Part shown: one piece after another, positions 1,620 through 42,011 of the stretch | How the letters are laid out: every line of letters begins with the position of its first letter | How positions within the stretch are numbered: position 1 is the first letter of the stretch | Assembly (NCBI GenBank): GCA_016214855.1 | Contig: JACRMT010000004.1 | Span: 558,001-622,000, forward strand | Direction: 5' to 3' | DNA from: Nitrospirota bacterium | Lineage (GTDB): Bacteria > Nitrospirota > Thermodesulfovibrionia > Thermodesulfovibrionales > UBA6898 | DNA: 64,000 nucleotides | The notes under the pieces: model-generated | The model's database searches: none | Told to the model about the DNA's origin: nothing | Seen by the model: the letters and a program-made list of their open reading frames with translations, nothing else | Made by a program: the position numbers and the translations under genes

Positions 1620-2111
1620 TTATTTCCCTTTATATTTTGCCAGCCAGATGGGAGACGGCCCCATCTGCCGTATCTTCTCTGTAAAGTTTGTGCATATCTC
1701 AGCCCATCTTGGTCCCTGGGCTGCCGACAGATTGTACATCTCGATCCTGGCCGGGTCTATGCCGACCTTTGCCAGAAGCTTCTTCGCGTACTCTATCCTT
1801 CTTGCTGCGAACTTATTACCTTCCAGGTAATGGCATTGTCCGACCAGTCAACCGGCCACAAAGACACCGTCTACGCCGCGCTCAAAAGCACGAAGGATAT
1901 GAATATGATCGAGCTTCCCGGTGCAGGGCAGCCGGATGATCTTCACGTTTGGCGGATAGGAAAGCCTCATGACGCCTGCAAGGTCAGCTGCGGCAAAGGC
2001 GCAGTAGTGGCAGGCAAAGGCAAGCACATTCGGCTCCCATGAAGCAGGTATATCGTGTGGCTTTTCTATGGTCGAAACCATTGTCTGCTCTGCTTCTGCA
2101 ACATCAGCCAT
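1620..2111 (-). CDS. mvhD: MvhD, Hdr-associated [2Fe-2S] subunit, selenoprotein with in-frame UGA at codon 88
   Basis: The methyl-viologen-reducing hydrogenase delta subunit family passes electrons to HdrA. Reading through a TGA at 1848-1850 gives one 163-residue protein ending ...LAKYKGK. The residues before and after the TGA are both MvhD sequence in the same frame. They include FACHYC (Cys34, Cys37), LPCTG (Cys63), then VAG-U88-LVGQ-C93-HYLEGN. The UGA falls exactly where relatives carry the first Cys of the GCxxxxCHYxxGN motif. A hairpin begins 16 nt after the UGA. Sec-containing relatives of this subunit are known (VhuD of methanogens and bacterial MvhD). The start at 2111 has a GGAG site. 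A standard ORF caller would truncate the protein at 87 residues. A pseudogene is the alternative, made unlikely by the intact frame on both sides. Confidence 0.88.
1815..1831 (-). promoter_or_regulatory. Putative bacterial SECIS hairpin in mvhD mRNA
   Basis: On the mRNA strand AUUACC pairs with GGUAAU around a UGGAA loop. The hairpin starts 16 nt after the in-frame UGA. Bacterial SECIS elements sit directly downstream of the Sec codon and usually have a G among the first two loop bases, as here. Function is inferred. Confidence 0.6.
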
Positions 2112-9861: not shown

Positions 9862-11128
9862 GCCGTGTTGAGCCCCGCGCTGTCAGGCGCGGGACTCGAA
9901 CGACTTGTGTACGCCCGGCATGGGCGTGAACTTATGGGGTGCAAGTCCCCTGTACGAGAACCGAAAGGTATTCATGATTAAGAATACTATCAAAAGTACG
10001 AGCCGAAGGCAATGGCGGAAGGGCGACCGACCGTAAGAAGCCAACAGTAGGGGCTTTAAGCCGAAGCCTATGGCAAGCGTGCGAGACGACGAACAGAAAC
10101 CGCATAGAAGGCTTAGCTCTTGGGTGAGTTGGCACAGCACAACGAAACCCGCAGGTTCATGGGGCAGGGTAAATGCGGCGTTTGTGCACGGAACGTTTTT
10201 AAACCTTCTCCGGTCAAGAGAGTCGAGATTCCCAAAGACAGTGGCGGAACCCGTCCCTTGGGTATCCCTGTTGTCATGGATCGCGTGATTCAGCAAGCGG
10301 TCTGTCAGGTTCTCAGTCCTGTCTTTGATCCCCATTTCTCCGAATCCAGCTTCGGGTTCAGACCAAACCGCTCTGCGCATCAGGCGGTCAAAAAGGTGTT
10401 GAAGGATATTCAGAGAGGATACGCCTATGCCGTGGATATCGACCTTGAGAAATTCTTTGATACGGTTGACCACGACACTCTGATGAATCGGGTATCCCGC
10501 AGAGTCAGAGACAAAGACATTCTCAAACTTATCGGGAAATATCTACGGGCCGTGTTGTCGTAGACGGCAGGCTGAACCAAACATCCAAAGGAGTGCCGCA
10601 GGGCGGGCCATTATCGCCATTTCTGAGCAATATCCTTCTGGATGATCTTGATAAGGAGTTAGAGAAAAGGGGGCATCGGTTCGCACGGTATACTGATGAC
10701 TTTACCATCCTTGTGAAGTCGGAACGTGCCGCCTATCGAGTAATGGAGAGTATCAGCCGTTTCCTTGAGAAAGTCCTTAAGGTGAAGGTCAACAGGGACA
10801 AAAGCCGGGTGGTGAAAGCAGAGGAAAGTTGTTTCCTCGGATTCACCTTTACCCGTAAAAGGCTTACGGTCTCTGAGAAATCCATTAGACGATTCAAGTC
10901 CGAACTGCGACGTCTTACCGGCCGCAGTTGGGGCGTCTCCATGGGCCGCAGGTATGGAGAACTCCGTATGTATCTTTTTGGATGGATGAACTACTTCGGC
11001 ATCGCCATGAAGTATAACGATGCCGTTGAGATGGATCACTGGCTTCGTAGGCGTATTCGCATGTGCTACATGAAGCAGTGGAACAGAGCGAGAAAGCGCA
11101 TTGGCGAACTGATAAAGCTGAGTGCGCC
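9862..11128 (+). mobile_element. Degenerate group II intron, 3' end lost
   Basis: About 330 nt of structured sequence, including a gcccgc/gcgggc-rich stem and a GGGGTGCAAGTCCCC stretch typical of domain I, precede a broken intron reverse transcriptase. No domain V or VI hairpin follows the reverse transcriptase. The intron reading stops near 11128 and sequence of an unrelated nitroreductase begins at once, so a deletion removed the 3' end. The 5' boundary at 9862 is approximate. Confidence 0.7.
10198..11128 (+). pseudogene. Group II intron reverse transcriptase/maturase, frameshifted and truncated
   Basis: The reading begins at FKPSPVKRVEIPK, where the N-terminal 80-100 residues (RT0 and early RT1) should precede but are absent. 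It continues through SSFGFRPNRSAH and VDIDLEKFFDTVDHD. A one-base deletion near 10551, in gggccgtgttg, shifts the frame and gives a premature TAG. Restoring one G would give RAGVVVDG leading into VPQGGPLSPFLSNILL. The polymerase motif is YTDD instead of the usual YADD. The maturase part breaks off after RKRIGELIKLSA. The protein cannot be functional. Confidence 0.85.
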
Positions 11129-26076: not shown

Positions 26077-29000
26077 CTATTTACTGACAACAGATGAGCT
26101 TTTTTTGAACTTTCTTCCTTTCCAGATCAGATAGATGGCAGGATAGATCGTAAGCTCAAGGATCTCAGAAGTAACAACCCCGCCGACCATAGGCGCGGCA
26201 ATGCGCTTCATGATGTCAGAGCCTGCGCCGTGGCTGAACAGGATAGGAACAAGGCCGGCAAGAATGACGCCGACTGTCATAAGCTTGGGTCTGATCCTCT
26301 TGACCGCGCCGAACATGATGGCATCTCTGAGATCCTGCTCGGTGTTCAGTTTTCCATCTTTTTTCCATTTTTCATAGGCAAGGTCAAGGTACAGGAGCAT
26401 CACAACGCCGGTCTCAGCATCAAGGCCTGCCAGGGCGATCATGCCGACCCAGACAGCAATGCTCATGTTATATCCCAGAAAATAGAGCAGCCAGAAAGAC
26501 CCGACAAGGGAGAACGGCACTGCGAGCAGAATAATCGTGGTCTTTACTGTTGACTTCGTATTCAGATAGATAAGCACAAAGATGATAAAGAGCGTGAGCG
26601 GGATTACGGTCTTCAGCCGCTCCTGCGTCTTGAGCATATATTCATATTCTCCGCTCCACTGAAGACTGTAACCTGCAGGAAGCTTCACCTGCTTTTCGAC
26701 GCTCTGTTTTGCCTCTTCCACATAGCCGCCGACATCGCGGCCGGAAAAGTCGATATACACATAGTTGGCGAGCTGGCCCTCTTCGCTCTTGATCGATGTC
26801 GGTCCCTGCACAATTGCGATATCCGCAATCTCACCAAGGGGTATATGGGCAATCCCTGACTTCTGCGATGCCTCTGCATTCATGCCTGAAGAACCGGCAA
26901 GAGATACCGGTACAAAAATGCGTTTGAGCTTCTCAATATCGTTCTGCAGTTCCCTGGCATAGCGCACATGCACAGGATATCGTTCCCTGCCTTCAACCGT
27001 AACAGTCAGGTTCATGCCGCCTAACGCAGCTGCAATGACTGTTTGCACATCGTCTATGGACAGTCCATACCGTGCAATTTCTTCCCTTTTCGGTTTAATG
27101 TCAAGGAAATAGCCGGTCATAACCCGTTCCGCGTACGCGCTGCGAGTACCGGGGACGCCCTTGACAGCGTTCTCAATATCGATAGAGATCTTTTCGATCG
27201 TTGCCAGATCCGGCCCAAGAACCTTTACGCCCACAGGCGTCCTGATTCCTGTTGCAAGCATGTCAAGCCTCGCCTTTATAGGCATGGTGAAAGAATTCGC
27301 AACACCCGGAATCTGGACCGCGTCATTCAGTTCATTCTTCAGTTTTTCAGTGGTCATTCCGGGCCGCCACTCTGATTCAGGCTTCAGATTTATGACCGTC
27401 TCGAACATCTCAAGAGGTGCAGGATCAGTTGCGGTCTCAGCCCTGCCTGCCTTTCCAAAGACCTGCGACACCTCCGGTATCTTTATCAGCAGGCGGTCCT
27501 GGAGCCTGAGAATCTTTGATACCTCAGAGACCGAAGCACCCGGCACTGTTGTCGGCATATAAAAAAGCGTGCCCTCATCAAGGGGCGGCATAAATTCCTT
27601 GCCGAGTTTCATCAGCGGATACACGGTCGCTGCAACGAGCAGCAGCGCAAAAACTATAACAAGCTTAGGGTGTTTCAAAGAAAACATAACGCGCGGCTTG
27701 TACAGTTTTTCGAGAAACCGGATTATCACATTATCGTGCTCAGGCTTTATCTTCCCCCTGATGAACATGGTCATAAGCACCGGGGTCAGGGTGACTGCAA
27801 GAAATGCAGAAAAGAGCATGGCAAAGGTTTTGGTGTAGGCAAGAGGTTTGAAAAGTCGTCCGGCCTGGGCCTCAAGAGTGAAGACCGGAAAAAAGCCGAC
27901 CGTAATTACCAACAGAGAGAAAAACAGCGACGGGCCAACCTCTTTGGAAGCCTCTATGATCACGTCAACCCTGCTGCCTGGTCTGCCCTCGTTCTCCCAC
28001 TCCTCCAGCTTCTTATGCGCATTCTCCACCATGATAATCGAGGCGTCTACCATGGCGCCAACAGCGATCGCAATGCCGCTGAGGCTCATGATGTTCGACG
28101 TAACGCCGAGGTAATACATGCAGATAAAAGAGATGATAATCGCAACAGGAAGAGTCAGGATCACAACAAGCGCGCTCGGCAGATGGAAGAGAAAAACGAT
28201 GCAAACTGCGCTCACGGCAACAGAAAGCTTGATGATCTCCTCTTTCAGGGTATGTATGGATCTGATGATAAGATCAGAACGGTCATAGGTCGTGACAAGC
28301 TTAACACCCTTAGGCAGGGATGGTTTAATATCCTTCTCGATCTTCTCTTTTACACGGTCGATGACCGTGAGCACATTTTCACCGAACCTGACAACCACAA
28401 TGCCGCCTGCGACTTCGCCTTTGCCGTCAAGATCAGCAATGCCCCGTCTCATCTCCGGTCCCAGCTGAACAGAAGCAATATCACGCAGATAGACAGGCGT
28501 TCCCGCGGGCCCCACGCCGACTGAAATCAGTTCAAGGTCCTGAAGGCCTTTCACGTAACCCCTGCCCCGGATCATATATTCAACACCCGACATTTCAAGG
28601 ACCCTTCCCTCAACGTCACGGTTGCTCTTCCTCACCGCTTCCATCACATTCATGATCGATAGGTTATAGGCAGAAAGACGGTTAGGGTCAATATGCACCT
28701 GGTACTGCTTTACAAAACCTCCGATACTGGCAACCTGCGATACGCCGGGAACACTCTCTATCGCCAGCTTGATGTTCCAATCCTGGAGCGACCGCAGTTG
28801 GGAAGGATCATGGTTTCCTGTCTCATCAATCAGAGCATAGGAAAAACCCCACCCAAGGCTTGTGGCATCAGGCCCCAGCACAGGATTCACATCAGCAGGA
28901 AGTTTGGAGCGCACGGACTGAAGATATTCAAGGATACGGCTTCTCGCCCAGTAGATGTCAGTCCCTTCTTCGAAGATCACATAAATGAAAGAACTGCCGA

Positions 29001-29262
29001 GATAGGAAAAGCCGCGGACAGCCTGCACTTTCGGAGCAGCAAGAAGTGTAGAGGTGATCGGATAAGTAACCTGGTCCTCAACAAGATCAGGACTCCTGCC
29101 TGCCCACTCAGTAAAAATGATCACCTGCGTGTCGCTCAGATCAGGTATGGCGTCAAGCGGAGTCCTCTCAAGAGACCAGTATCCCCAGAGACAGAGAAAC
29201 CCGACAAGAAGCAGAACAATGAACTTGTTTCTGCCGCTGAATTCTATGATTTTAGCTATCAT
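26077..29262 (-). CDS. cusA: CusA-like heavy-metal RND efflux pump
   Basis: This 1061-residue inner-membrane proton-driven transporter exports Cu(I)/Ag(I) across the envelope with CusB and CusC. It begins with the family's MIAKIIEFSGRNKFIVLLL first helix and ERTPLDAIPDLSDTQVIIFTEW. The conserved AVGAMVDASIIMVENAHK lies in the proton-relay helices near residue 405, and DAETGVVMLLYLD marks the CusA/SilA branch of the HME family. Twelve membrane segments in two halves flank large periplasmic loops. It is the last gene of a cusC-cusB-cusA run, separated from cusB by 143 bases of heptad repeats. Copper over divalent metals is inferred from neighbours. Confidence 0.92.
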   Translation of the reverse strand: MIAKIIEFSGRNKFIVLLLVGFLCLWGYWSLERTPLDAIPDLSDTQVIIFTEWAGRSPDLVEDQVTYPITSTLLAAPKVQAVRGFSYLGSSFIYVIFEEGTDIYWARSRILEYLQSVRSKLPADVNPVLGPDATSLGWGFSYALIDETGNHDPSQLRSLQDWNIKLAIESVPGVSQVASIGGFVKQYQVHIDPNRLSAYNLSIMNVMEAVRKSNRDVEGRVLEMSGVEYMIRGRGYVKGLQDLELISVGVGPAGTPVYLRDIASVQLGPEMRRGIADLDGKGEVAGGIVVVRFGENVLTVIDRVKEKIEKDIKPSLPKGVKLVTTYDRSDLIIRSIHTLKEEIIKLSVAVSAVCIVFLFHLPSALVVILTLPVAIIISFICMYYLGVTSNIMSLSGIAIAVGAMVDASIIMVENAHKKLEEWENEGRPGSRVDVIIEASKEVGPSLFFSLLVITVGFFPVFTLEAQAGRLFKPLAYTKTFAMLFSAFLAVTLTPVLMTMFIRGKIKPEHDNVIIRFLEKLYKPRVMFSLKHPKLVIVFALLLVAATVYPLMKLGKEFMPPLDEGTLFYMPTTVPGASVSEVSKILRLQDRLLIKIPEVSQVFGKAGRAETATDPAPLEMFETVINLKPESEWRPGMTTEKLKNELNDAVQIPGVANSFTMPIKARLDMLATGIRTPVGVKVLGPDLATIEKISIDIENAVKGVPGTRSAYAERVMTGYFLDIKPKREEIARYGLSIDDVQTVIAAALGGMNLTVTVEGRERYPVHVRYARELQNDIEKLKRIFVPVSLAGSSGMNAEASQKSGIAHIPLGEIADIAIVQGPTSIKSEEGQLANYVYIDFSGRDVGGYVEEAKQSVEKQVKLPAGYSLQWSGEYEYMLKTQERLKTVIPLTLFIIFVLIYLNTKSTVKTTIILLAVPFSLVGSFWLLYFLGYNMSIAVWVGMIALAGLDAETGVVMLLYLDLAYEKWKKDGKLNTEQDLRDAIMFGAVKRIRPKLMTVGVILAGLVPILFSHGAGSDIMKRIAAPMVGGVVTSEILELTIYPAIYLIWKGRKFKKSSSVVSK

Positions 29263-29405: not shown

Positions 29406-30623
29406 TTAATGTTTATGTCCGCCGCCGAGAGGTTTAACGCCCTTCAGCTGGGCCTCGGAATCGAGAAGAAAGATGGCCGATGATGCGATTTTATCGCCCT
29501 GCTTCAGCCCTGACAAGATCTCGATCAGGCCGTCAACCTTCAGCCCGGTCTTCACTTCCCTCGGTTCAAAATAGCCGTCGCCCTTGTCAACATATACGAC
29601 CTGCCGTGTGCCCGTGTCGAGTACTCCCTCCGTGGGTACGGCAAGTTTCTTCCCAAGCGGAATAGCGATCTCTACATTCGAAAACATCTGCGGCTTCAGC
29701 AGATTGCCGGGATTAGGCAGCGTAAACCTTACCTTTGCCGTTCTTGTTTCTGCTGAGAGCGCCGGATAGACATAATCTATTACAGCGTTCATCTCCCTGC
29801 CCGGAAGGTAGCTCAGGCTTATTCTTGCATGCTGACCCTGCTTTACGAGTGCCAGTTCGTTCTCATAGATCTCAGCCACGATCCAGACCGTGCTCAGGTC
29901 CGCAATATCAAACAGCTTCTCGCCAGGCATGACCCTCATTCCCCGGAAGGCCATTTTCTGCACCACAAAGCCGCTCGACGGACTGTACAGGGTCAGGGTC
30001 CTCAGCGGTTTACCGGTCTCTTCTATCGTCTTAATCTGATCATCCGATATGTCCCAGAACCGGAGACGCTGACGGGCAGCATCGACCAGTGAAGAAGCAT
30101 CCTTTGACAGCATAGCCTTCATATCGCTGCTTTTTTCGCCCGCCGTATTTTGACGCATCCATTTCAGGGCATTGATGAATTCCTGCTGGGTCGCAACAAG
30201 CTCGGGACTATAGATCTCTGCAAGAGGTTCACCTTTTTTGACAAAACGTCCACTGAAATCGACATGGAGCTTTTCGATCCACCCCTCAAACTTCGCATTG
30301 ATCGTCGAGATCTTCTTCTCGTCATACTCGATCCTGCCGGCTGTCCTGATTAGCTTCTGAAGCTGATGCACGGAGGCCTCCACCGTCTTCAGGCCGATCA
30401 TCTGCTGTTTATCAGCCGGTATCTCGACCGAAGGGGCTTCCTGCGCAGGCTCCTGCTGCCGGGGCTCTTCTGGCGTCTGCGGCTTCGCTGCATCATGTCC
30501 CTGGTGCTCTGCTGCTGGCTTTGGTTCCCCCTTCTTCGAACTGTTTCCGTTCCTGGCAGCATATACTACGGCAACGAGTGCCAGCACCGCGACAACAAGA
30601 CCGATCAGATATTGTTTCCTCAT
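29406..30623 (-). CDS. cusB: CusB-like periplasmic adaptor (membrane fusion protein)
   Basis: This 405-residue adaptor bridges CusA and CusC. It has an N-terminal membrane anchor (LIGLVVAVLALVAVVYA), a Lys/Pro/Gln-rich linker, a beta-barrel and lipoyl-type pair (INAKFEGWIEKLHVDFSGRFVKKGEPLAEIYSPELV, GFVVQKMAFRGMRVMPGEKLF) and a helical hairpin between them. The C-terminus HKH and the HQGHD in the linker add metal-binding residues. The start overlaps the cusC stop as ATGA. Confidence 0.9.
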   Translation of the reverse strand: MRKQYLIGLVVAVLALVAVVYAARNGNSSKKGEPKPAAEHQGHDAAKPQTPEEPRQQEPAQEAPSVEIPADKQQMIGLKTVEASVHQLQKLIRTAGRIEYDEKKISTINAKFEGWIEKLHVDFSGRFVKKGEPLAEIYSPELVATQQEFINALKWMRQNTAGEKSSDMKAMLSKDASSLVDAARQRLRFWDISDDQIKTIEETGKPLRTLTLYSPSSGFVVQKMAFRGMRVMPGEKLFDIADLSTVWIVAEIYENELALVKQGQHARISLSYLPGREMNAVIDYVYPALSAETRTAKVRFTLPNPGNLLKPQMFSNVEIAIPLGKKLAVPTEGVLDTGTRQVVYVDKGDGYFEPREVKTGLKVDGLIEILSGLKQGDKIASSAIFLLDSEAQLKGVKPLGGGHKH

Positions 30624-31885
30624 TGAACTATCCCCCCTGTTTCAACCATTCCGATCATCGCCTCGAATCTCGCTGAAGCCTTCTCATGTTCCGTGACCTG
30701 GACCCAATACAGTGTTTCGAAATCGATCAGCGCCTTCAGCCTGTTTATGACCGTAATCGCCTCTGTCTTCCCCGTGCTGTAGCCCGCAAGCGCTGCTTCA
30801 AAGTCCTGATAGGTCTTCGGAATAAGACCGCTCTTATAAAGATCCATCAGCCGTTCAGAGGTCGCAGACATGGAATACGTATCCCTGATGGAAGAAGCGG
30901 TCATGAGACGCGCTGCCTCAAGTTCTCTCTTTGCCTCCGCAAGCATGGCCTCTGCCTCAAGCACTGCCTGCTTCTGTTTAGTCCTGTAATAGAGCGGTAT
31001 ATTTACCGTAGTCGTCAGGCTCCACATATCCATGAACTGACCGCCTCCCCTGGTGAAATAGCTGCCCGCAACCGTAAAGTCAGGATAGTATTCTTTCTCC
31101 GCCATTTTTACTCTCGCCTCGGCAGCGGCCACCATCCGCTGTTTGACCCGTATCTCGGGAGAATGGTCATAGGCCTTATTAAGCAGTTCGTCAAGACTCC
31201 TGACCGGAAGTGATAACGTCTGTTCTGCAGGCCTGCCAAGAGGCCTGTTCACATCCCTTCCAACCGTGGTATTGAGCATCGCCTCCAGAGATTGGACCTT
31301 CTGCTTCTGCATCTCTTCTTTTTCGAGAAGCATGTATTTCTCGGTCTGCGCCATAAGGACTTCCTGCTGCATACCCATGCCGGAGGAATAGCGGGCCAGC
31401 GCGGCATCCTCAATGCGGGAAAAAAGAACGGTCCGCTCCCTGATGAGATCGATAGTTTTATGGGCAAGGAAGAGTTCGAAATAGAGTTCCCTGATCCGTG
31501 CGATGGTCTTCAGCCTTACTGCTTCATGAACTATCGATACCCCCTGCGCATCCTGCCTCGCCATCTCCTCTTTCAGAGACCGCTTGCCGGGAAAGGGAAA
31601 CATCTGGGACGCAGAGAACATCCACTGGGCATCCGGCTCCTTGCCAAATGTATACCGCTCCCATCCTTCATTCTGATACCCGAACATAACCATGGGATCA
31701 GGAAGACTCCCTGCCTGGGGTATGCGATACCGGGCTGCCTGAGCGCGTGCGTCAGACGCAAGGATCTCAGGACTATTCTTCAAGGCTTCCTGGATAAGGT
31801 CCTGAAGCTTCAGATCCTCAGCGAATGAAACGGAAGCGGCAACAAAAAGAATAAAAAGAGCGAGGAGAGACCGGACCCCCTTCAT
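30620..31885 (-). CDS. cusC: CusC/TolC-type outer membrane channel
   Basis: This 421-residue outer membrane efflux protein has two OEP repeats of long helices (for example IREVRARIRELYFELFLAHK-type heptads around residue 120, and AKRELEAARLMTASSIRDTY near 300). The start MKGVRSLLALFILFVAASVSFA at 31885 gives a clean signal peptide, while the frame extends to 31960 without need. No lipobox Cys is evident, unlike E. coli CusC. It is the first gene of the cus run and follows the UGA-containing PCYCGC gene in the same direction. Confidence 0.88.
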   Translation of the reverse strand: MKGVRSLLALFILFVAASVSFAEDLKLQDLIQEALKNSPEILASDARAQAARYRIPQAGSLPDPMVMFGYQNEGWERYTFGKEPDAQWMFSASQMFPFPGKRSLKEEMARQDAQGVSIVHEAVRLKTIARIRELYFELFLAHKTIDLIRERTVLFSRIEDAALARYSSGMGMQQEVLMAQTEKYMLLEKEEMQKQKVQSLEAMLNTTVGRDVNRPLGRPAEQTLSLPVRSLDELLNKAYDHSPEIRVKQRMVAAAEARVKMAEKEYYPDFTVAGSYFTRGGGQFMDMWSLTTTVNIPLYYRTKQKQAVLEAEAMLAEAKRELEAARLMTASSIRDTYSMSATSERLMDLYKSGLIPKTYQDFEAALAGYSTGKTEAITVINRLKALIDFETLYWVQVTEHEKASARFEAMIGMVETGGIVQ

Positions 31886-32000
31886 GCGATGTTTCGGGTT
31901 AGCATATCTGTCTGACACGCACGTTATCTCCCATCTATTAATTACCTTGCATCCACGCAACTATAATAGCTGCTGCTATCAATTTCTTCATGGTTGACAC

Positions 32001-32408
32001 CTATCGTTTAAATTGTTTCTCAACTGCTGCCTTGATTTCTTTTATTGTCATCCCTTTTTGATACAGCTCGAAGGCCATCAAGGCCTCCCCTAAACAAATA
32101 TCTCACACCGCGGCATGATTGTCAACGTAGCAGCTGAGCAGGCTCTTATGCCTGAATGTCGGAGACTCCTTGCACATGCAAAAACAATAGATACTGTCCA
32201 GGACCCACGGGATCTCTTTTGCAACCCTATACGCCTCTTTCACGCGAGCGTCTTTAAATTGTCCGGGATCGAGTGTTGCCCTGGTCTCACCTTTGCGCAG
32301 GGATTCATCCTTTGGAACCACCCCCTGCTTTTGCGCGGCCTCAGCGCCGGCAGAAACAATTAAAAGCAGCAACGGCAAAACGAGAAGTTTCAGTCCTGCT
32401 ATTTTCAT
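32001..32408 (-). CDS. PCYCGC-type exported protein, selenoprotein candidate with UGA at codon 102
   Basis: Reading a TGA at 32103-32105 as selenocysteine gives a 135-residue exported protein. It has a signal peptide (LLVLPLLLLIVSAGAEA), a YCFCMC triad (Cys75, 77, 79), HKSLLSCY (Cys93), then HAAV-U102-DIC105-LGEA and a helical end KGMTIKEIKAAVE. The layout matches the PCYCGC-motif family, whose C-terminal HAAxCxxC motif has Cys where UGA stands here. So the element is a UxxC, a typical Sec-for-Cys site. A hairpin starts 14 nt after the UGA. A strong AGGAGG site precedes the ATG. It lies among copper genes, so copper binding or thiol chemistry in the envelope is likely but inferred. A nonsense mutation is the alternative. 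Confidence 0.8.
32070..32088 (-). promoter_or_regulatory. Putative bacterial SECIS hairpin in the PCYCGC gene
   Basis: On the mRNA strand GGAGGCC pairs with GGCCUUC (one G-U) around a UUGAU loop, starting 14 nt after the in-frame UGA. Position and size are like the hairpin after the mvhD UGA at 1815-1831. Confidence 0.55.
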
Positions 32409-32519
32409 ATTTACTCACCTCCTTAATTATGGCAGTTGAATCATAAATAATAAAGTTGAAGTAATTATGAACGTCATGTCTAAGTCAAAGTTTTGCCCGC
32501 AGCTAAAGGCTAAGGCTGT

Positions 32520-33323
32520 TCACTTCGCTTGGAATGTAAACTCATCATCGAGTTTGACCTTATTCCCGCTTTCAATAATGATGTTCGTCCTGATCATATA
32601 CGTCCCTTTAAGCTTCAGACTTATATCAGCGCCATAACCACCATACATGCCCATGGTCATTGTCCTGAAATCCTTTCCATCGGGACCTGTCAACTGGAAC
32701 GCAACCTCGCCGGGCACAATCTTTCCATCAGGTTTCTGGATGTAGACCATGAGATGATTTGTCTGCTCAGGGACCTTTTTCATGCCCATGACCGAATGAC
32801 CCTCCATCTTCCTCATCATTTCGTTTCGTTCAGACAAATCCAGAAGGTGATACATCAGGGTGTACCCCTTGAGGTCTGCCTGGCGAATATGTTTGCCGGG
32901 CCGCGCCGGTAATTGCCCTGTTCCTGCTGTTACTTTAAGACTCTTGACATAATTAACAAGATGCCACCGTATGTCGCTTGTCAGTTCCTTTCCAAATCCC
33001 TTCATCAGCGTACCTTTGGCACCATCCGTTATCACATGAAATATCTCCCCGTCTGTATCCCCATGAATGACTATATCGTCCGTAAGGTTCAGGTTTCCCT
33101 CTCCCTTGCCTCCCTCTCCATGGCAGCCGACGCAATGCTTTTCATAAAATTCAGCCCCCTTCTTAATCGACTGCTCAGTCACAGGCACAGGATTTTTTAC
33201 TTTTGCATACTGCTTGTGTTTATGCGGATGCGGCTGGTGCGTATGTTCGGATGCAAGAACATATTCTACGAAAAAAACCAGCCCAAACAGTGAGAATAAG
33301 AATACGACTAATATCTTCATCAT
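32520..33323 (-). CDS. Cytochrome c with C-terminal metal-binding-like beta domain
   Basis: This 267-residue exported protein has a signal peptide, a His cluster directly after it (HTHQPHPHKHK), then one heme site CVGCH near residue 64 within a class I cytochrome c domain. The axial Met candidates are in GTLMKGFGKEL. The last 120 residues form a separate beta-rich domain containing a Met/His stretch (MMRKMEGHSVMGMKK) and a YtkA/FixH-like ending. The ATG at 33323 follows a GGAGG site seven bases upstream. It sits in the copper locus and may oxidise or sense copper; the function is inferred. Confidence 0.78.
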   Translation of the reverse strand: MMKILVVFLFSLFGLVFFVEYVLASEHTHQPHPHKHKQYAKVKNPVPVTEQSIKKGAEFYEKHCVGCHGEGGKGEGNLNLTDDIVIHGDTDGEIFHVITDGAKGTLMKGFGKELTSDIRWHLVNYVKSLKVTAGTGQLPARPGKHIRQADLKGYTLMYHLLDLSERNEMMRKMEGHSVMGMKKVPEQTNHLMVYIQKPDGKIVPGEVAFQLTGPDGKDFRTMTMGMYGGYGADISLKLKGTYMIRTNIIIESGNKVKLDDEFTFQAK

Positions 33324-33345
33324 GGTCTTGCCTCCAGTCAATACA

Positions 33346-33396: not shown

Positions 33397-34329
33397 TTAC
33401 TGAATTCTGCCGTTTGAGTTCCTTAGTTTATCCATGAGAGCCTGCATGTCCTGGACTGTCAGACCAGAATGGTTCTGACCGGACTGCATAAAGGCCTGCA
33501 TGCTATCCGCCAATTCTGAACTGCCTGCATTAGACTGCATCATATTGCCTGCCATCATGCCTCCTCCCATCGGAATCTGTGTTCCGCCCATTATCCCGTT
33601 CATACGTCCATCGGATGCATCGTTCATCATGACAGTGACCATCCCTGAGGAATTGGGCATACCAATAGCCTTTGCATACTGCGACATGGCGGCTATGCTC
33701 ATTCCGTAGTTCCTTTGGTCTTGCGTGGAAACAGGCCCCGAGCCATTTGTCAGCGGATCCATAGGACGTGTATGAAGGATATCGCTCACCCCGAAGTATT
33801 GTCCCATTAAATTGTTAGCCTGAGCAATGTTGGCCTGGGTCATCCCTCCCGTCATATTCTGTGCCATCAGTTGAGCCATTGAAGTAAGAGGAGTCATATG
33901 AATATTTGTCACGCTCTCTCCGGCTGCCATGGAAGGCACCACGGTTGTCATCATATCGCCGGCACCCATCATGGTTGTAATTCCGGTTGCCTCATCAATG
34001 TAGCTCCCGCCGGCCATCTGCAGCATAAACGAGCCCGAATGGTTGCCGACAGTCATCGAAAAATTACCCTGCGTGTCCGTCATGGCAGTGCCTATCTGTC
34101 CGCCTTTTGTTCCGTCGGAATTTATGCTAAAAGCCATAACTGCTGCGCCCGACACAGGCCCCTTGATCGCGGTCCCGCTGACAGTTCCGGTCTCCGGCGT
34201 GGCAGTCACGGAAGTTCCTCCGCCTCCGCCGCCGCATCCAACCAACATCGTGAGAGCTATCGTCAAAAGAATCAGTGTCAAATACCCTGCTGTAATTCTG
34301 TGTTTTTTCATTCTAAACCTCTTTTTCAT
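33397..34329 (-). CDS. Methionine-rich lipoprotein
   Basis: This protein of about 310 residues has a signal peptide with lipobox LVGC near residue 31, followed by a poly-Gly linker. The N-terminal part (GTVSGTAIKGPVSGAAVMAF...) looks like a carboxypeptidase-regulatory/beta-sandwich domain. The rest is unusually Met-rich, with MTGGMTQ, MNGIMGGTQ and MGGGMMAGNMMQ clusters that could bind Cu(I) by thioether sulfur. ATG codons at 34329 and 34311 both have usable ribosome-binding sites. No enzyme motif is seen. The copper locus suggests metal buffering at the outer membrane. Confidence 0.7.
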   Translation of the reverse strand: MKKRFRMKKHRITAGYLTLILLTIALTMLVGCGGGGGGTSVTATPETGTVSGTAIKGPVSGAAVMAFSINSDGTKGGQIGTAMTDTQGNFSMTVGNHSGSFMLQMAGGSYIDEATGITTMMGAGDMMTTVVPSMAAGESVTNIHMTPLTSMAQLMAQNMTGGMTQANIAQANNLMGQYFGVSDILHTRPMDPLTNGSGPVSTQDQRNYGMSIAAMSQYAKAIGMPNSSGMVTVMMNDASDGRMNGIMGGTQIPMGGGMMAGNMMQSNAGSSELADSMQAFMQSGQNHSGLTVQDMQALMDKLRNSNGRIQ

Positions 34330-34393
34330 CTTTTCTTGTCTCCTTCATATTGAAGATAGTTTTAGGCTGTCTCGCGTTTTTCATATAGCCCTC

Positions 34394-34762
34394 CTAATGT
34401 TTATTCGGCTCTGCTTTTTTGGGCTCTTTGCCCTCAACTTCTTTCGACTGTGTCCCGCTCATGTCAGAACCCGTTCCCGTAATACAGCCATATGCTTTTT
34501 TCATCTGATCCATCATCTCCATTTGGGATGCCTCTGTTGCCGTCTTGGGATCTTTCATGTGTACTTCATGAAGGTCTATCGCTTTTTTGAGCCACTGCTC
34601 AGCACAGGCAAGTTTGGCCTGCGGATCGCCATTACCCGTCATCATACCCATGCCCATCTTTCCTTTCTGCTCTCCCATCATGCTCTCCATTATCGCAAAA
34701 CTGCTTGAAACAAATAGCATAACCAGAAACAAACTACAGAGACCTACGCCTGTTCTTTTCAT
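34394..34762 (-). CDS. Small Met-rich exported protein
   Basis: The product has 122 residues from the ATG at 34762, which has a perfect AGGAGG site. A signal peptide (VGLCSLFLVMLFVSSSFA) is followed by MESMMGEQKGKMGMGMMTG, a Met/Gly cluster, then a helical region with a Cys at each end (LACAEQW ... AYGCITG), which may form a disulfide. The C-terminus is Lys/Glu-rich. The family is unrecognised; a periplasmic copper chaperone is a reasonable guess from composition and neighbours only. Confidence 0.68.
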   Translation of the reverse strand: MKRTGVGLCSLFLVMLFVSSSFAIMESMMGEQKGKMGMGMMTGNGDPQAKLACAEQWLKKAIDLHEVHMKDPKTATEASQMEMMDQMKKAYGCITGTGSDMSGTQSKEVEGKEPKKAEPNKH

Positions 34763-34816
34763 GTTAATCCTCCTTTTTTTATGGCAGCCCACCACGATGG
34801 CCGCTTATTTCTGGCA

Positions 34817-35656
34817 TCAATAATCCGCCGGCCTGAGATTTTCTATTGAGCCCGGATCATTTTTCGGCTCTGCCAGGACGTTCAGAACAAATTCAACCTT
34901 TCTGACAACGCCCTTATGCCGGAACTCTGCGAATACGGAATGGAGTCCGGGCCGCATAAATACGATGCTCACCGGCACTTCAGGTCCGCCGAGGTTCTGC
35001 TTTGGCGTTATATACAGGAATTCTTTGAGGTCTTCATCCCACGCTGCAACGTGCATATCGAAACCGTCCACTTTTTCAATACTGGTTACCGGCGCTCCCT
35101 TATAGCTTATGTCATACAGAAGTGTCACAACATGCTCGGCATAAGCCTTCCTGGGGACAAGTCTGACTTTTATCTGATAATCTTCATCTCCGGGAATCGT
35201 TACGCGCCCGGAACCCTTCCCGTCTCCGGAAATCTTGATATCTTTTCTGAGATCAACCCACCCTTTTGAAGACTGAAAAACAATCTCAATGCGATATCTG
35301 CCCGCCTTAGGCGCCTGATATGAAAAAAGATAGTTACCATCAGCTTTTTCAGGAATGATATGCGCATATTCATGAAGATCGTGATCCGTGATAAATACAT
35401 GAGGACTGATTATCTCCTCTCTCTCTTTCGATGCAAGGGAAAACCTGAACTCATTTCCCTTACACGCGGTCGCGCTGCTCGTCTCCAGCATGAAATCATA
35501 TCCCCGCGGATTTATCTTTACGGGCCAGATATAGGGTTTTTCATTATGCGTATCGGGCACGATAAGCACTTCCTTGTCGAGATCAAGCTCTGCATAGGCA
35601 CAGGGTACCAGCATGAAAAATAACAGTCCCATCACAAAAAATCTTCTCGTTCTCAT
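34817..35656 (-). CDS. Exported beta-sandwich protein of the copper locus, function unknown
   Basis: This 279-residue protein has a signal peptide (FFVMGLLFFMLVPCAYA) and two similar beta-rich halves. The first includes FITDHDLHEYAHIIPE with three His and Asp residues, the second FDMHVAAWDEDLKEFLYITPK. Both recall cupredoxin-like or FixH/YtkA-like domains where such residues bind metal. It is the third gene of a run coupled by four-base overlaps with the two genes upstream, so the three products probably act together. Confidence 0.7.
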   Translation of the reverse strand: MRTRRFFVMGLLFFMLVPCAYAELDLDKEVLIVPDTHNEKPYIWPVKINPRGYDFMLETSSATACKGNEFRFSLASKEREEIISPHVFITDHDLHEYAHIIPEKADGNYLFSYQAPKAGRYRIEIVFQSSKGWVDLRKDIKISGDGKGSGRVTIPGDEDYQIKVRLVPRKAYAEHVVTLLYDISYKGAPVTSIEKVDGFDMHVAAWDEDLKEFLYITPKQNLGGPEVPVSIVFMRPGLHSVFAEFRHKGVVRKVEFVLNVLAEPKNDPGSIENLRPADY

Positions 35657-36333
35657 GAATTACCGAGAAAATTGAGTTTATGCCCGGTCTCAAGTTTCAG
35701 AAGGCTTCGTTGACGGATGATCCATACCGCGGTCAGGCCGCTCAGCACGATAACGGCGAAAACGAATATCATGCTGTAGAACCTGGCCTTTGATGCGGCT
35801 ATGTATGAGAGGGTTCCTCCATACACGAGGGGTTCAGCATAGCGTTTCCCTGCAAGCGAAGAGACGGCAATCGTAAAAAAAAAATCACCGGGAACGGTAA
35901 GAGGATATTCAACAGCGTATACACCAGCCTTCTGCCGGGGCTTAAGCTTTTTGAAGGTGCTTAAGTCAAGAGAGTCGCCCATCTGGACCGGTTCTCCGAA
36001 ATCGAGTCCGCCTCCTTCACTGCCACTTTCTGGTGTGGCACTGGGCATCACGTGCCCTGCATGGGCCGATGCCGGACCGTCTTTGTCGATCCTCACATAT
36101 ATTTCAGCGTCAAGAACCGGGCTGTTGCTCACGAAATCGCTCAGTGTTATGACTGCCTGTGGGGTCTTGTTTTTTGCATAGTTCACGGGTTCCAGGGCAA
36201 ACTGCACCTTGAGAGTCCCAAGACGGAATTCAGGTGTAGAAACGGATTCACCATGGCCTTCACCGGCGTTCGATATTCCGCTGAAAATCAGGAGAATCGC
36301 TAAAACGGCAAATATATGGATATTTCTTTTCAT
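35653..36333 (-). CDS. FixH/YtkA-like exported protein with C-terminal membrane helix
   Basis: This 226-residue protein has a signal peptide (IFAVLAILLIFSGISNA), a central beta-sandwich (VQFALEPVNYAKNKTPQAVI ... PGDFFFTIAVSS) and a C-terminal membrane segment (FYSMIFVFAVIVLSGLTAVWII). A His/Met/Gly insertion (SAHAGHVMPSATPES) lies between strands. Its start and stop overlap the neighbours by four bases on both sides. It could anchor the preceding and following periplasmic proteins to the inner membrane; this is inference. Confidence 0.68.
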   Translation of the reverse strand: MKRNIHIFAVLAILLIFSGISNAGEGHGESVSTPEFRLGTLKVQFALEPVNYAKNKTPQAVITLSDFVSNSPVLDAEIYVRIDKDGPASAHAGHVMPSATPESGSEGGGLDFGEPVQMGDSLDLSTFKKLKPRQKAGVYAVEYPLTVPGDFFFTIAVSSLAGKRYAEPLVYGGTLSYIAASKARFYSMIFVFAVIVLSGLTAVWIIRQRSLLKLETGHKLNFLGNS

Positions 36334-36908
36334 TTTTTCCTGAACATCTCATTGATAATGAAAAGCCCTCTCCTCGCGCCGCTGGCTATCGCCTGTGCTG
36401 CTTTATCCGTGCCTTCAGGCGCTTTAATATCACTGCCGGTTTTGAACAGGTCAGACGCTTTTTTCCCCTCGAACTGCTTAAGGAATGTGGGATCAGTGAC
36501 TTTTGATGATTCTTTATTCTCAAAAATCAGAACCTTTGCAAGATCGCCCTTGCCACTAACCACCACACCCATCTCAATCTTTCCACCGTCGCCCTGGGCA
36601 TCAACGAACATAATGGCCCCTGCCTTGCGAACAGCAGCATCAGGCGTATTTCGCACAACCGCGAGATAGATCGAGGGTTTCAGATCCTCGTCAGGGAGCT
36701 TCACCCCCAAAGCCTTCTCAATATTCGCCCGCTGCTCATCAGACACATACAGATTTTTCTGTTCAAAAGAGACTGCCTGAGGAAAAAGGACTTTCAATTT
36801 ATCACCGGGCCATACAAGATCATGGGAATACGAACTGCCCGCAATAAGGCCTGTAAAAACCAATAAACTAACCGCAGCTGTAATTGTTCTCATTAGGGTC
36901 ATGGACAT
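36330..36908 (-). CDS. FMN-binding-domain-like exported protein
   Basis: The product has 192 residues with a signal peptide (ITAAVSLLVFTGLIAGSSYS). The rest resembles FMN-binding domains of the NqrC/RnfG type: LKVLFPQAVSFEQKN, AGAIMFVDAQGDGGKIEMGVVVSG and a final AQAIASGARRGL segment. The covalent flavin Thr/Ser of the SGAT motif is not clearly kept (SGAR here), so flavin attachment is doubtful. An alternative ATG is at 36893. It is first in the three-gene overlapping run. Confidence 0.68.
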   Translation of the reverse strand: MSMTLMRTITAAVSLLVFTGLIAGSSYSHDLVWPGDKLKVLFPQAVSFEQKNLYVSDEQRANIEKALGVKLPDEDLKPSIYLAVVRNTPDAAVRKAGAIMFVDAQGDGGKIEMGVVVSGKGDLAKVLIFENKESSKVTDPTFLKQFEGKKASDLFKTGSDIKAPEGTDKAAQAIASGARRGLFIINEMFRKK

Positions 36909-37320: not shown

Positions 37321-39735
37321 TCATAATCTTGCCCTTCTCAGTCGAAGTGCATTGCCGATAACCGAAACAGAGCTGAAGCTCATGGCAGCGGCGGCAAATA
37401 TGGGGCTGAGGAGGATGCCGAAGAAGGGATAGAGAACGCCGGCAGCAATGGGTACCCCGAGGGCATTATACACAAAGGCAAAGAAGAGGTTCTGCTTGAT
37501 ATTCCTCATCGTAGCCCTGCTGAGCAGTCTTGCACGCACGATTCCGCGCAGATCGCCCTTCACCAGGGTCACGCCTGCGCTTTGCATCGCCACATCCGTT
37601 CCGGTCCCCATCGCAACGCCGACATGCGCCTGTGCAAGGGCCGGGGCATCGTTGATGCCATCTCCTGCCATTGCCACTATCTTTCCCTCAGACTGGAACT
37701 TTTTGACGATCTCAGCCTTCTGGTCAGGCGGGATCTCGGCTATCACCTCATCAATGCCGAGCTTTTTCCCGACAGCCTCCGCAGTCGTCTTACTGTCGCC
37801 GGTAAGCATGACAACACGGATCCCTTCCTCGTGAAGCTTCGCTATCGCCTCGGCAGTAGTTACCTTGATCGGATCAGCAACGCCAAGAATTCCTGCAGCC
37901 TTTCCGTGTACAGCAACAAACATGACAATCTGTCCCTCTCTGCGCATGGCCTCAGCCTTGTCCTGGAGCTCTCCAGGAGCGATACCGAGATCGTCGAGCA
38001 GCTTGCGATTACCAAGGGCAATCTTCTTCCCGTCAAGAAAACCTGTTACCCCACGGCCAGTGAGCGACTCAAAAGACTCAACCTTCAAATGCGAGATATC
38101 CTTTTCCTTTGCAGCTGCGATTATCGCTGCAGCCAGGGGATGCTCACTCCCCATCTCGATGCCTGCTGCAAGATGAAGCAGTGTCTTCTCATCAAATCCT
38201 TCAGCGGTCACCACGCTCACCAGTTTCGGCTTTCCCTCTGTGAGAGTGCCGGTCTTGTCCGTAACAAGGGTATCAACGGTCTTCATCACCTCGATAGCCT
38301 CTGCGTTTTTAAAGAGCACTCCGCCTGTTGCCCCCTTGCCCATCGCCACCATAATTGACATCGGTGTTGCGAGACCAAGTGCACAGGGGCAGGCGATGAT
38401 CAGCACCGCAACTGCGTTGACAAGGGCGTAGGCAATGCGAGGATCAGGTCCGATCCATGACCAGACCACGAAGGTAAGGACCGCAATACCGACCACAATC
38501 TGCACAAAATAACCGGCGACAATGTCCGCTAATTTCTGGATAGGAGCACGACTCCGCTGGGCCTCGGCCACCATATGGACGATCTGTGCCAGAAGTGTCT
38601 CGGCCCCGACCTTCTCTGCCTTCATAACGAATGTGCCGGTGCCATTCACTGTTGCGCCGATCACCCTGTCGCCTGACTGCTTCATCACCGGGATCGGTTC
38701 ACCAGAGATCATGGATTCATCCACGCTGCTTGATCCTTCGGTGACCGTGCCGTCGACAGGGATCCTTTCACCGGGTCTCACACGAAGGTTATCTCCCGGC
38801 TTAATTTCATCAAGAAGGACATCCTCTTCATTTCCGTCCTGAATGCGGCGGGCCGTTTTCGGCGCCAGACCGAGGAGGGCCTTGATTGCTGCACCGGTCC
38901 GCGTCCTCGCTCTCAATTCCATTACCTGTCCGAGCAGCACGAGAGTGACGATAACTGCTGCAGCCTCGAAATACATGCCTACTTGACCGCTTTCACCACG
39001 AAACGACTTGGGAAAAAGACCAGGGAATAGAACAGCCACAATGCTATAGAGATAGGCAACGCCGACGCCGAGTCCGATAAGGGTAAACATATTCGGGTTC
39101 CGGGTAATGACCGACTGCCAGCCTCTGACGAAGAACGGCCAGGCCCCCCAAAGCACAACAGGCGTGGCAAGGACCAGCTCTAACCACTTGCGTATTGCAT
39201 GGGGCACCGTGTCAAGAATCAGGGAAAGACCTGGGATCATGCCGCCCATGACAAGTGTGACAAGCGGCATGGTAAGCACCGCACTGACCTTGAACCTCCG
39301 CGTCATGTCGAGCAGTTCAGGACTTTCCTCTTCGTCTGCCGTGATCGTTTTCGGTTCAAGGGCCATACCGCACTTTGGGCAGTTCCCAGGCGCGTCGCGG
39401 ACTATCTCCGGATGCATCGGGCATGTCCACTCAGCTTTGATCACCCCGGCATTTGGCTCGGCAGGCTCAAGAGCCATTCCGCATTTAGGACAGGAACCGG
39501 GGCCTTCCCGCCGGATGTCGGTATGCATAGGGCAGGTAAAAATGACGCCATCTTCGAAAGTCTTTTTTTCTTCACCCGATGACGGTTTTTTATCAAGAAA
39601 GACTGCAGGATTTGCGGTAAATTTATCTTTGCATAAGTCCGAGCAGAAATAATATGTGCTGCCTTTATACACATATGCAGCAGCGGCCTTTTTATCCTTC
39701 ATGGTCATACTGCAAACCGGGTCCATTACTTGCAT
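37321..39735 (-). CDS. copA: Copper-translocating P1B-type ATPase with YHS and two metal-binding modules
   Basis: This 804-residue inner-membrane pump moves Cu(I) to the periplasm. The N-terminus has a YHS domain ([10 protein letters not shown] ... [12 protein letters not shown], residues 4-48) and two short Cys modules (CPMHTDI...[10 protein letters not shown] and CPMHPEI...[10 protein letters not shown], residues 70-130). Eight membrane segments follow, with the ion-binding CPC in [13 protein letters not shown] near 450, the phosphorylation DKTGTLTEG near 490 and [10 protein letters not shown] near 690. No classic CxxC ferredoxin-like domain is present. A GAGAGG site precedes the ATG. It follows the multicopper oxidase in the same direction. 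Confidence 0.93.
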
Positions 39736-39881: not shown

Positions 39882-41945
39882 TCAGAACCGTATGATAATT
39901 CCAGCCCCTGTCCCGTAATCAGAATGATGCCGGGCTGTAAGCGATAGCCATTTATTGATCGTCCATTCACCACCGGCGGCCCATTCTGATTTTGTGCCGG
40001 TATCATATGTAAGATGACCGAATACGCTGAACCTGTCCGTAATCTGAATTTTTTTCTCAAGAGATATTCTGAGCTCTTTTTCGGTGTCAACCCATGCCCT
40101 GCTTTCGATATTAAGAGGCAGAAGATACCTGATTCCGAGCACTCCTCTGGAATCTTCGTCTGTTATATTGGCCCCGGCGAGTACGCTGACAAAACGGCTT
40201 ATGTACCTGCCATAAAGAATTTCAATGTCATAGGCTCCGTTCCGAGAAGCTTCCTTATTAATGGAAAAAGTATTTCTGGAATTCGAGGCATTCAGAAAGA
40301 TATCGCCCATCTGCGTTAAGAGTGATAGTCTGCCCCAGAAAAACCACATGTCTTTTTTCAGGCTGTTTGCCGGGTCCTTTCTCGCATCTGCAATCTCAGG
40401 GTCAATCTCCGCGCCTTCATAGGTAAGCACGGTAAACATGCCTGCCTCCATGTGATAGAGGATATGGCAGTGAAGGGGCCAGTCCTTGTCCTCTCCTGCA
40501 TAAAATTCAATTATCTGTTTTCCCATGGGCGGGATATCGACCGTATGTTTAAGAGGAGAGTATTCGCCCTGTTTGTTTATAACTCTGAAAAAGTGGCCAT
40601 GAAGATGCATTGGATGATGCATCATGGATTTATTTTCAAAAACAATGCGGACCTTCTCTCCTTTTCTGATGATTATCGGTTCTGCTTCAGAAAGGATCTT
40701 GCCGTTTATTGTCCAGACAAAGCGCTCCATATCTCCGTCGAGGGCAAGGGTGATAGTTCTCCCAGGATTGGATTCCGGCAGAACCGTCCGCTTTACTGCA
40801 CGGAGATGTTCATAGGGAGGCATAGGCCTCGCATCTGCCTTTTGCCCCATATCATGCATCATCTGCATATCATGTTTTTCCGCAGCCATACCCATATCCA
40901 TTCCCGTCTCATGCCCTCCATGCATTCTGTATAAATCCGGCTTTGACATATCGGGAGCAGACACACGTTTTCCTTCCCCGATGAAGGCAGAGACACTTCC
41001 GCTTCCATCCTGAGCGGTTGCCCTGAATTCAAAGGAGCCGTTATCGGAAACGACAACAGTCACATCATATGTCTCGGCTATCGCAATCAGAATGCGGTTT
41101 ATGTCAAAGGGCTCTACATCCTGGCCGTCGGCTGAAACCACCGTCATGGAGCCATCTGCATACTGCAAATAAAAATATGTCCCTGCCGAGGCATTTATAA
41201 TACGGAGCAGAAGGGTCTCGCCGGGTTTTGCCGGAAGATGCAATTCCTTTTCTCCGTTGACAAGAAACATATCATAGCCGACATCGGAAATATCCATTGG
41301 AGGCATGCGGTCTAACGAGCGCTTCAGAACATCGGGCAGGGCCCTGTTTTTCATGGCCCCGTAAATGCTCTGCATGGTCCCCCTTTTCAGCATATAGTAA
41401 TCGCTTCCTCGCTTAAGGGTCCTCATCACCTCATGCGGGTCTTCATCAGTCCAGTCGGAAAGAACAAGCACATATTCCCTGTCCGGCTGTTCCTTCTTTT
41501 CCTTCGGATATATCACGATCGACCCGTAAACACCTTTTTGCTCCTGCAGCTCGGTATGGGAGTGATACCAGTAGGTTCCAGCTTGTTTAACCGGGAAGAT
41601 GAATTCGCGGAATGCTCCGGCCTTTATCGGAGGGGTTGTAAGATACGGGACGCCGTCTTCTTTATTCGGCAGGAGGATTCCGTGCCAGTGAATGGAAGTC
41701 TCTTCCTCGAGCCTGTTGTAAACGCGAATTTTGGCAATATCCCCTTCTGTCCAGTAAAGAGTCGGTCCCGGAATGCTCTTGTTTATAGAGATTGCCATCA
41801 CCTCTTTGCCCGTGAAATTTACGGTTTTATATTCAATAAAAAGGTCATACTCAACCGTTTTGCCGCAGGCCGGCGTATCAGTAAAAACTACAAAGAACGC
41901 CGCCGGTAGTATGAAAAAAATAAAGTTCCTCAGCAGAGTAATCAT
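39882..41945 (-). CDS. CopA-type multicopper oxidase fused to a CopB-like beta-barrel tail
   Basis: This protein of 687 residues from the ATG at 41945 has a signal peptide (FIFFILPAAFFVVFTDTPA). It has the four copper-ligand motifs of multicopper oxidases: HWHGILLPN, YWYHSHTELQEQ, HHPMHLHGHFF and HCHILYHMEAGMF. A Met/His insert (MHGGHETGMDMGMAAEKHDM) resembles the Met-rich loop of PcoA/CopA cuprous oxidases. After the oxidase domain, about 165 extra residues alternate amphipathic strands (GVLGIRYLLPLNIESRAWVD, LEKKIQITDRFSVFGHLTYD) and end in Phe. These resemble CopB-type outer membrane copper proteins, normally a separate gene. Cu(I) oxidation is the likely activity; the fusion would tether it to the outer membrane. 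Confidence 0.85.
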   Translation of the reverse strand: MITLLRNFIFFILPAAFFVVFTDTPACGKTVEYDLFIEYKTVNFTGKEVMAISINKSIPGPTLYWTEGDIAKIRVYNRLEEETSIHWHGILLPNKEDGVPYLTTPPIKAGAFREFIFPVKQAGTYWYHSHTELQEQKGVYGSIVIYPKEKKEQPDREYVLVLSDWTDEDPHEVMRTLKRGSDYYMLKRGTMQSIYGAMKNRALPDVLKRSLDRMPPMDISDVGYDMFLVNGEKELHLPAKPGETLLLRIINASAGTYFYLQYADGSMTVVSADGQDVEPFDINRILIAIAETYDVTVVVSDNGSFEFRATAQDGSGSVSAFIGEGKRVSAPDMSKPDLYRMHGGHETGMDMGMAAEKHDMQMMHDMGQKADARPMPPYEHLRAVKRTVLPESNPGRTITLALDGDMERFVWTINGKILSEAEPIIIRKGEKVRIVFENKSMMHHPMHLHGHFFRVINKQGEYSPLKHTVDIPPMGKQIIEFYAGEDKDWPLHCHILYHMEAGMFTVLTYEGAEIDPEIADARKDPANSLKKDMWFFWGRLSLLTQMGDIFLNASNSRNTFSINKEASRNGAYDIEILYGRYISRFVSVLAGANITDEDSRGVLGIRYLLPLNIESRAWVDTEKELRISLEKKIQITDRFSVFGHLTYDTGTKSEWAAGGEWTINKWLSLTARHHSDYGTGAGIIIRF

Positions 41946-42011
41946 TTCCGGATCCCTCAATCATCTCACCTTAGGCAACCTATGAACCTGTTTCATGAAA
42001 AACCCCTGCTG

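Follow-up and report, generated by a model that had tools for sequence, protein, structure and literature searches.

A predicted CYCXC family selenoprotein encoded in a copper efflux locus of a Nitrospirota bacterium

Within a 64,000-nucleotide (nt) stretch of a Nitrospirota genome (here, the window), we identified a short gene whose single in-frame TGA very likely specifies selenocysteine (Sec) and which is encoded directly upstream of a cusCBA-type copper efflux system. Its product belongs to the CYCXC family, a selenoprotein family that, by the account of a recent review, has been catalogued since 2007 as a hypothetical protein. What our analysis adds is that one branch of this family usually resides inside a copper/silver export cluster in related bacteria. 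This placement, together with an invariant set of cysteine, histidine, and Sec residues, makes the secreted branch a candidate selenium-based handler of copper or thiols in the cell envelope.

A CYCXC family gene with one in-frame TGA

Translation of the window revealed a minus-strand open reading frame running from 32408 to 32004 and ending at a TAG stop codon, with one TGA inside the frame. As an earlier note on this DNA had proposed, the frame is open on either side of that codon, and the TGA occupies the first cysteine position of a conserved motif (HAAVUDICLGEA), giving UxxC. The parts of the gene are as follows.

32001..32408, minus strand: coding sequence of the CYCXC family (OS_HP4, PF13798) selenoprotein, 135 amino acids, Sec at residue 102; stop codon TAG at 32001-32003
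32416..32424, minus strand: Shine-Dalgarno-like sequence AAGGAGGTG, upstream of the ATG at 32408
32334..32408, minus strand: probable Sec signal peptide, residues 1 to 25, called by inspection; the structural model has a hydrophobic helix at residues 10 to 22
32172..32186, minus strand: CxCxC motif (C75, C77, and C79), from sequence and alignment
32094..32105, minus strand: UxxC motif (U102-D-I-C105), from sequence and alignment
32103..32105, minus strand: in-frame TGA, very likely read as selenocysteine at the first position of UxxC, from TGA/Cys conservation and the selABCD genes of the genome
32070..32088, minus strand: SECIS-like hairpin of 7 bp with a 5-nt loop, starting 14 nt 3' of the TGA, from folding; much weaker in Cys homologues

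After replacement of Sec by cysteine, the sequence reaches 123.1 bits on the NCBIfam model NF041379, named "CYCXC family (seleno)protein" (cut-off, 90), and 43.5 bits on the Pfam family PF13798, PCYCGC (gathering score, 25); all 46 aligned relatives match both models. The protein also has the CxCxC and C/UxxC motifs of NF041379, and its gene has UGA in place of the Cys codon, selABCD in the same genome, and a SECIS-like hairpin. A review from 2026 includes "CYCXC family protein (hypothetical protein OS_HP4), PF13798, UxxC" in its Table 1 as a high-confidence predicted prokaryotic selenoprotein family and, in its own attribution, traces OS_HP4 to the Olavius algarvensis symbiont study of Zhang and Gladyshev in 2007 (PMC13188914). 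The NF041379 name and this table rule out a novel selenoprotein family. Thus, the earlier reading of a PCYCGC-type selenoprotein in a copper locus stands, and its suggestion that the family had not been described as a selenoprotein does not.

The TGA is conserved and very likely decoded as selenocysteine

The window genome (3.30 Mb, 100% complete) encodes selA, selB, selD, and tRNA-Sec (selC), the full set that the earlier note had asked for. It also carries a second CYCXC copy, likewise with a TGA, at C4:467350. Across the phylum, the family is present in 82 of 396 genomes. The 58 distinct loci compared, which come from Nitrospirota, Nitrospinota, Acidobacteriota, and one Dehalococcoidia bin, divide into 50 with TGA and 8 with Cys, without exception in the same alignment column, so the UGA/Cys alternation that had been sought among homologues is present. 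Where a genome has a TGA copy, SelB scores above the cut-off in 39 of 41 cases; where it has Cys copies only, SelB does so in 6 of 19 (Fisher p 4e-7; tallied by hand). Downstream of the TGA, the codons are under purifying selection (dN 0.23 and dS 1.65 between the window copy and the second copy of the same genome). That 50 distinct relatives share the codon, that the other 8 have Cys, and that the codons beyond it are constrained argue that the TGA is not there by chance.

The hairpin downstream of the TGA (GGAGGCC-UUGAU-GGCCUUC, 32088 to 32070) was borne out by folding at the distance first noted. Mean predicted folding after the codon is -14.1 kcal/mol at TGA loci versus -6.6 kcal/mol at Cys loci. 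The pairing holds in 95% of alignment cells and falls when the partners are slid by 1 to 3 columns; compensatory change is confined to 1 of the 8 pairs. A search of the gene against Rfam, which is weakly informative for bacterial SECIS elements, returned nothing above the gathering scores.

Sec insertion at 32103-32105 is thus very likely, given the conservation of the TGA, the co-occurrence with SelB, the complete Sec system, the folding of the hairpin, and the constraint after the codon. In this organism, its own SelABCD machinery would decode the UGA as selenocysteine, guided by the hairpin just downstream. That the TGA is instead an ordinary stop, created by nonsense mutation or sequencing error and followed by a remnant frame, is extremely improbable: the window copy does change faster after the TGA (dN 0.23 versus 0.03 to 0.09 for the second copy and its relatives), but 50 distinct loci, spread over several phyla, have TGA at the identical codon, and this, with the post-TGA constraint, conserved hairpin, and complete Sec system, led us to reject a pseudogene or an error. 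Reassignment of TGA in the genetic code was also rejected, as 7 of 12 genes flanking in the copper region end at TGA and none of the 12 has an internal one.

Several side observations touch on Sec in this genome and its relatives. Over the 32 post-TGA codons of the window copy (32004-32102, minus strand), there are about 10 amino acid changes relative to every relative, and the relatives differ from the second copy by 2 to 5; the extra change could reflect either relaxed constraint or divergence of the two copies. At two loci of a related genus (L157 near 1014, plus strand, and L158 near 1081, minus strand), CYCXC is reduced to its C-terminal part. A possible 41-residue mini-ORF there, with a GTG start and a GGAGG-like site, keeps the UxxC and helices and lacks CxCxC; it is possibly a remnant or a mini-selenoprotein. 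The selD gene of the window genome (G000:C2:175951-176877, L010) contains a single in-frame TGA, which makes selenophosphate synthetase another likely selenoprotein. The second UGA-containing gene reported for the window, of the mvhD family, was found at 1659-2027 (minus strand): an MvhD/FlpD relative whose one in-frame TGA (VAGULVGQCHY) falls at a Sec position of a known type; the genome's two further FlpD-type copies lack a TGA. The window also contains a match to a group II intron RNA (RF02001, 95 bits) at 10063-10204 (plus strand).

The secreted subtype usually resides in copper efflux clusters in Nitrospirota

Profile matches placed the gene in a copper locus with CusABC and a cytochrome c, as had been noted, and extended that locus to a P-type ATPase and a multicopper oxidase. 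The neighboring features are as follows.

26077..29262, minus strand: cusA-type RND transporter (PF00873)
29406..30623, minus strand: cusB-type periplasmic adaptor (profile matches)
30620..31960, minus strand: cusC-type outer membrane efflux protein (PF02321), directly downstream of CYCXC
32520..33341, minus strand: cytochrome c (PF13442), directly upstream of CYCXC
33397..34795, minus strand: two Met-rich proteins of 310 and 133 amino acids, no family above cut-off
34817..36908, minus strand: three-gene cassette p279-p226-p192, no Pfam family above cut-off
37321..39735, minus strand: copper-type P-type ATPase, CopA (TIGR01511)
39882..41960, minus strand: multicopper oxidase, relative of the copper-resistance CopA type (TIGR01480, 429 bits, below the cut-off of 479)

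The second CYCXC copy of the genome lies between CopA and a p192-p226-p279 cassette, and several genomes have this cassette next to CYCXC and CusCBA.

The phylum has two main subtypes of the family, which we assigned by motif. The window protein is of the secreted subtype (IPWVLDSIYC...ESPxFxHKS), in which the codon is TGA in 31 of 31 distinct loci. In Nitrospirota, copper genes lie within 9 kb in 20 of the 25 secreted-subtype loci with enough downstream sequence versus 1 of 17 loci of the anchored and other forms of Nitrospirota and Nitrospinota (Fisher p 3e-6), and in none of 8 loci of the acidobacterial form; these counts are approximate, since the loci were chosen for long contigs rather than at random, the relatives are not independent, and the subtypes rest on motifs. 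The link to copper does not extend to all of the family: 5 of the 25 secreted loci are without a copper gene nearby, and most anchored and acidobacterial loci lack this context.

Among the 25 secreted loci, cusA is present in 17, cusC in 18, and a YtkA-like gene (PF13115) in 14. The usual order, on one strand, is CYCXC, YtkA-like, cusC, cusB, and cusA; the window locus has no YtkA-like gene, and cusC follows CYCXC directly. Genes for an OmpR-type response regulator, a histidine kinase, and a small CxxC-YGxC protein frequently lie farther upstream. The small protein is conserved (TPYGxxCxxCxxYGxC; L086, L088, L107, and others), has no Pfam family, and is often encoded with CYCXC on one side and a CusRS-like two-component system on the other. 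We found no mention of the copper-operon context of the secreted subtype in the literature searched, which was largely open access and covered the 2007 study through the 2026 review.

Possible roles of the protein

Eight residues are invariant across the 46 sequences: C75, C77, C79, H87, C93, H98, C/U102, and C105. The AlphaFold2 model of the protein is helical and confident over the domain, with 97 residues at a pLDDT of at least 90. Searches by sequence found no relative with a solved structure.

Our preferred reading, to which we give about an even chance, is that CYCXC is a periplasmic Cu(I)- or thiol-handling protein acting in place of CusF. Its link to copper comes from gene context: copper/silver efflux clusters would be the setting of the secreted subtype among these Nitrospirota, and there it would occupy the position of cusF in E. 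coli cusFCBA. The product is probably secreted to the periplasm. There it could bind or redox-process Cu(I) through CxCxC, H87, C93, H98, and UxxC, and then pass the metal to CusCBA or protect periplasmic thiols; interaction with CusCBA is suggested by gene position. No CusF domain was found by Pfam in CYCXC or among the window copper proteins that were profile scanned. The selenium-dependent copper or thiol chemistry imagined at the outset is supported in its copper link, through conserved gene context, and conjectural in the chemistry. A narrower version, in which a Sec-dependent periplasmic copper/silver handler replaces CusF in Nitrospirota CusCBA operons, strikes us as somewhat unlikely; if true, a CusF-like Sec protein would be the first function for the OS_HP4/PCYCGC family. 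The gene may also adjoin cusCBA without its product binding copper and be merely coregulated.

The main rival role, which we hold less likely than not, is that of a CcmH-like thiol/selenol-disulfide oxidoreductase, in which UxxC would reduce disulfides or the CxxC thiols of cytochrome c in the periplasm. Placement in copper clusters would then reflect the damage that copper does to thiols and to cytochrome c assembly, and CxCxC and the histidines would be structural. UxxC is indeed a redox-type motif, and copper targets include cytochrome c biogenesis and periplasmic thiols (PMC7558416). Some Cys-form anchored relatives adjoin a thioredoxin-like protein, ResB, and a CcsA-like cytochrome c biogenesis protein (CcsA by inspection). 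One locus (L095:9599-10513, minus strand), the sole such fusion seen, joins a PCYCGC domain of the Cys form to a cytochrome c and a CcmH domain (42 bits), in support of this role. The top match in a fold search was E. coli CcmH (2KW0), but it is weak (E 1.9), and no match was firm. Profile comparison by hhalign against CcmH (PF03918) gave 70%, with a reversed control at 1%; this match is not specific, because other CxxC families reached 33 and 53% in the same test, and homology to CcmH is suggestive at most. Pfam did not match CcmH in the window protein and did so in 1 of 46 relatives (E 0.02). Moreover, an oxidoreductase role leaves the invariant CxCxC and histidine residues unexplained.

An improbable alternative is a copper-sensing leader or expression-control protein that, like CutF, acts in cis on cusCBA. 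As with many CutF-like genes (PMC9973294), CYCXC lies directly upstream of cusC, and its product is small, probably exported, and rich in Cys. CYCXC, however, has a well-conserved folded domain with purifying selection after the Sec codon and no CutF/DUF2946 Pfam match, and a YtkA-like gene usually separates it from cusC.

Comparison with known systems

Periplasmic copper/thiol handling in place of CusF, as we favor, invites comparison with CusF itself. In E. coli, cusF is the first gene of cusFCBA, a system most important in the absence of oxygen (PMC7558416). CusF is likewise small and exported, and its gene immediately precedes cusCBA. CYCXC, in contrast, has no CusF profile match, and Cys/Sec would take the place of Met/His/Trp ligands; since CusF is a beta-barrel (PMC7558416) and the CYCXC model is helical, the likeness would be one of role only. 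The N-terminal domain of CcmH (PF03918, 2KW0) has a similar CxxC/UxxC redox-type motif followed by helices; CYCXC differs in its additional CxCxC and histidine residues, and its scores against CcmH do not exceed those of the CxxC controls.

The closest likeness is to NF041379/OS_HP4, which has the same domain and the same CYCxC and UxxC motifs as the window protein, with nothing found against membership. The PCYCGC proteins of Bacilli (PF13798) share the Pfam domain and are also envelope proteins, but they are lipoproteins, and the one described contains Cys and is encoded beside an Fe3+ substrate-binding protein (PMC13068155). Finally, SaoB, SaoC, and the SO_0444 family Cu/Zn transporter, although of families different from CYCXC, likewise have Sec in proteins linked to metal resistance (PMC13188914).
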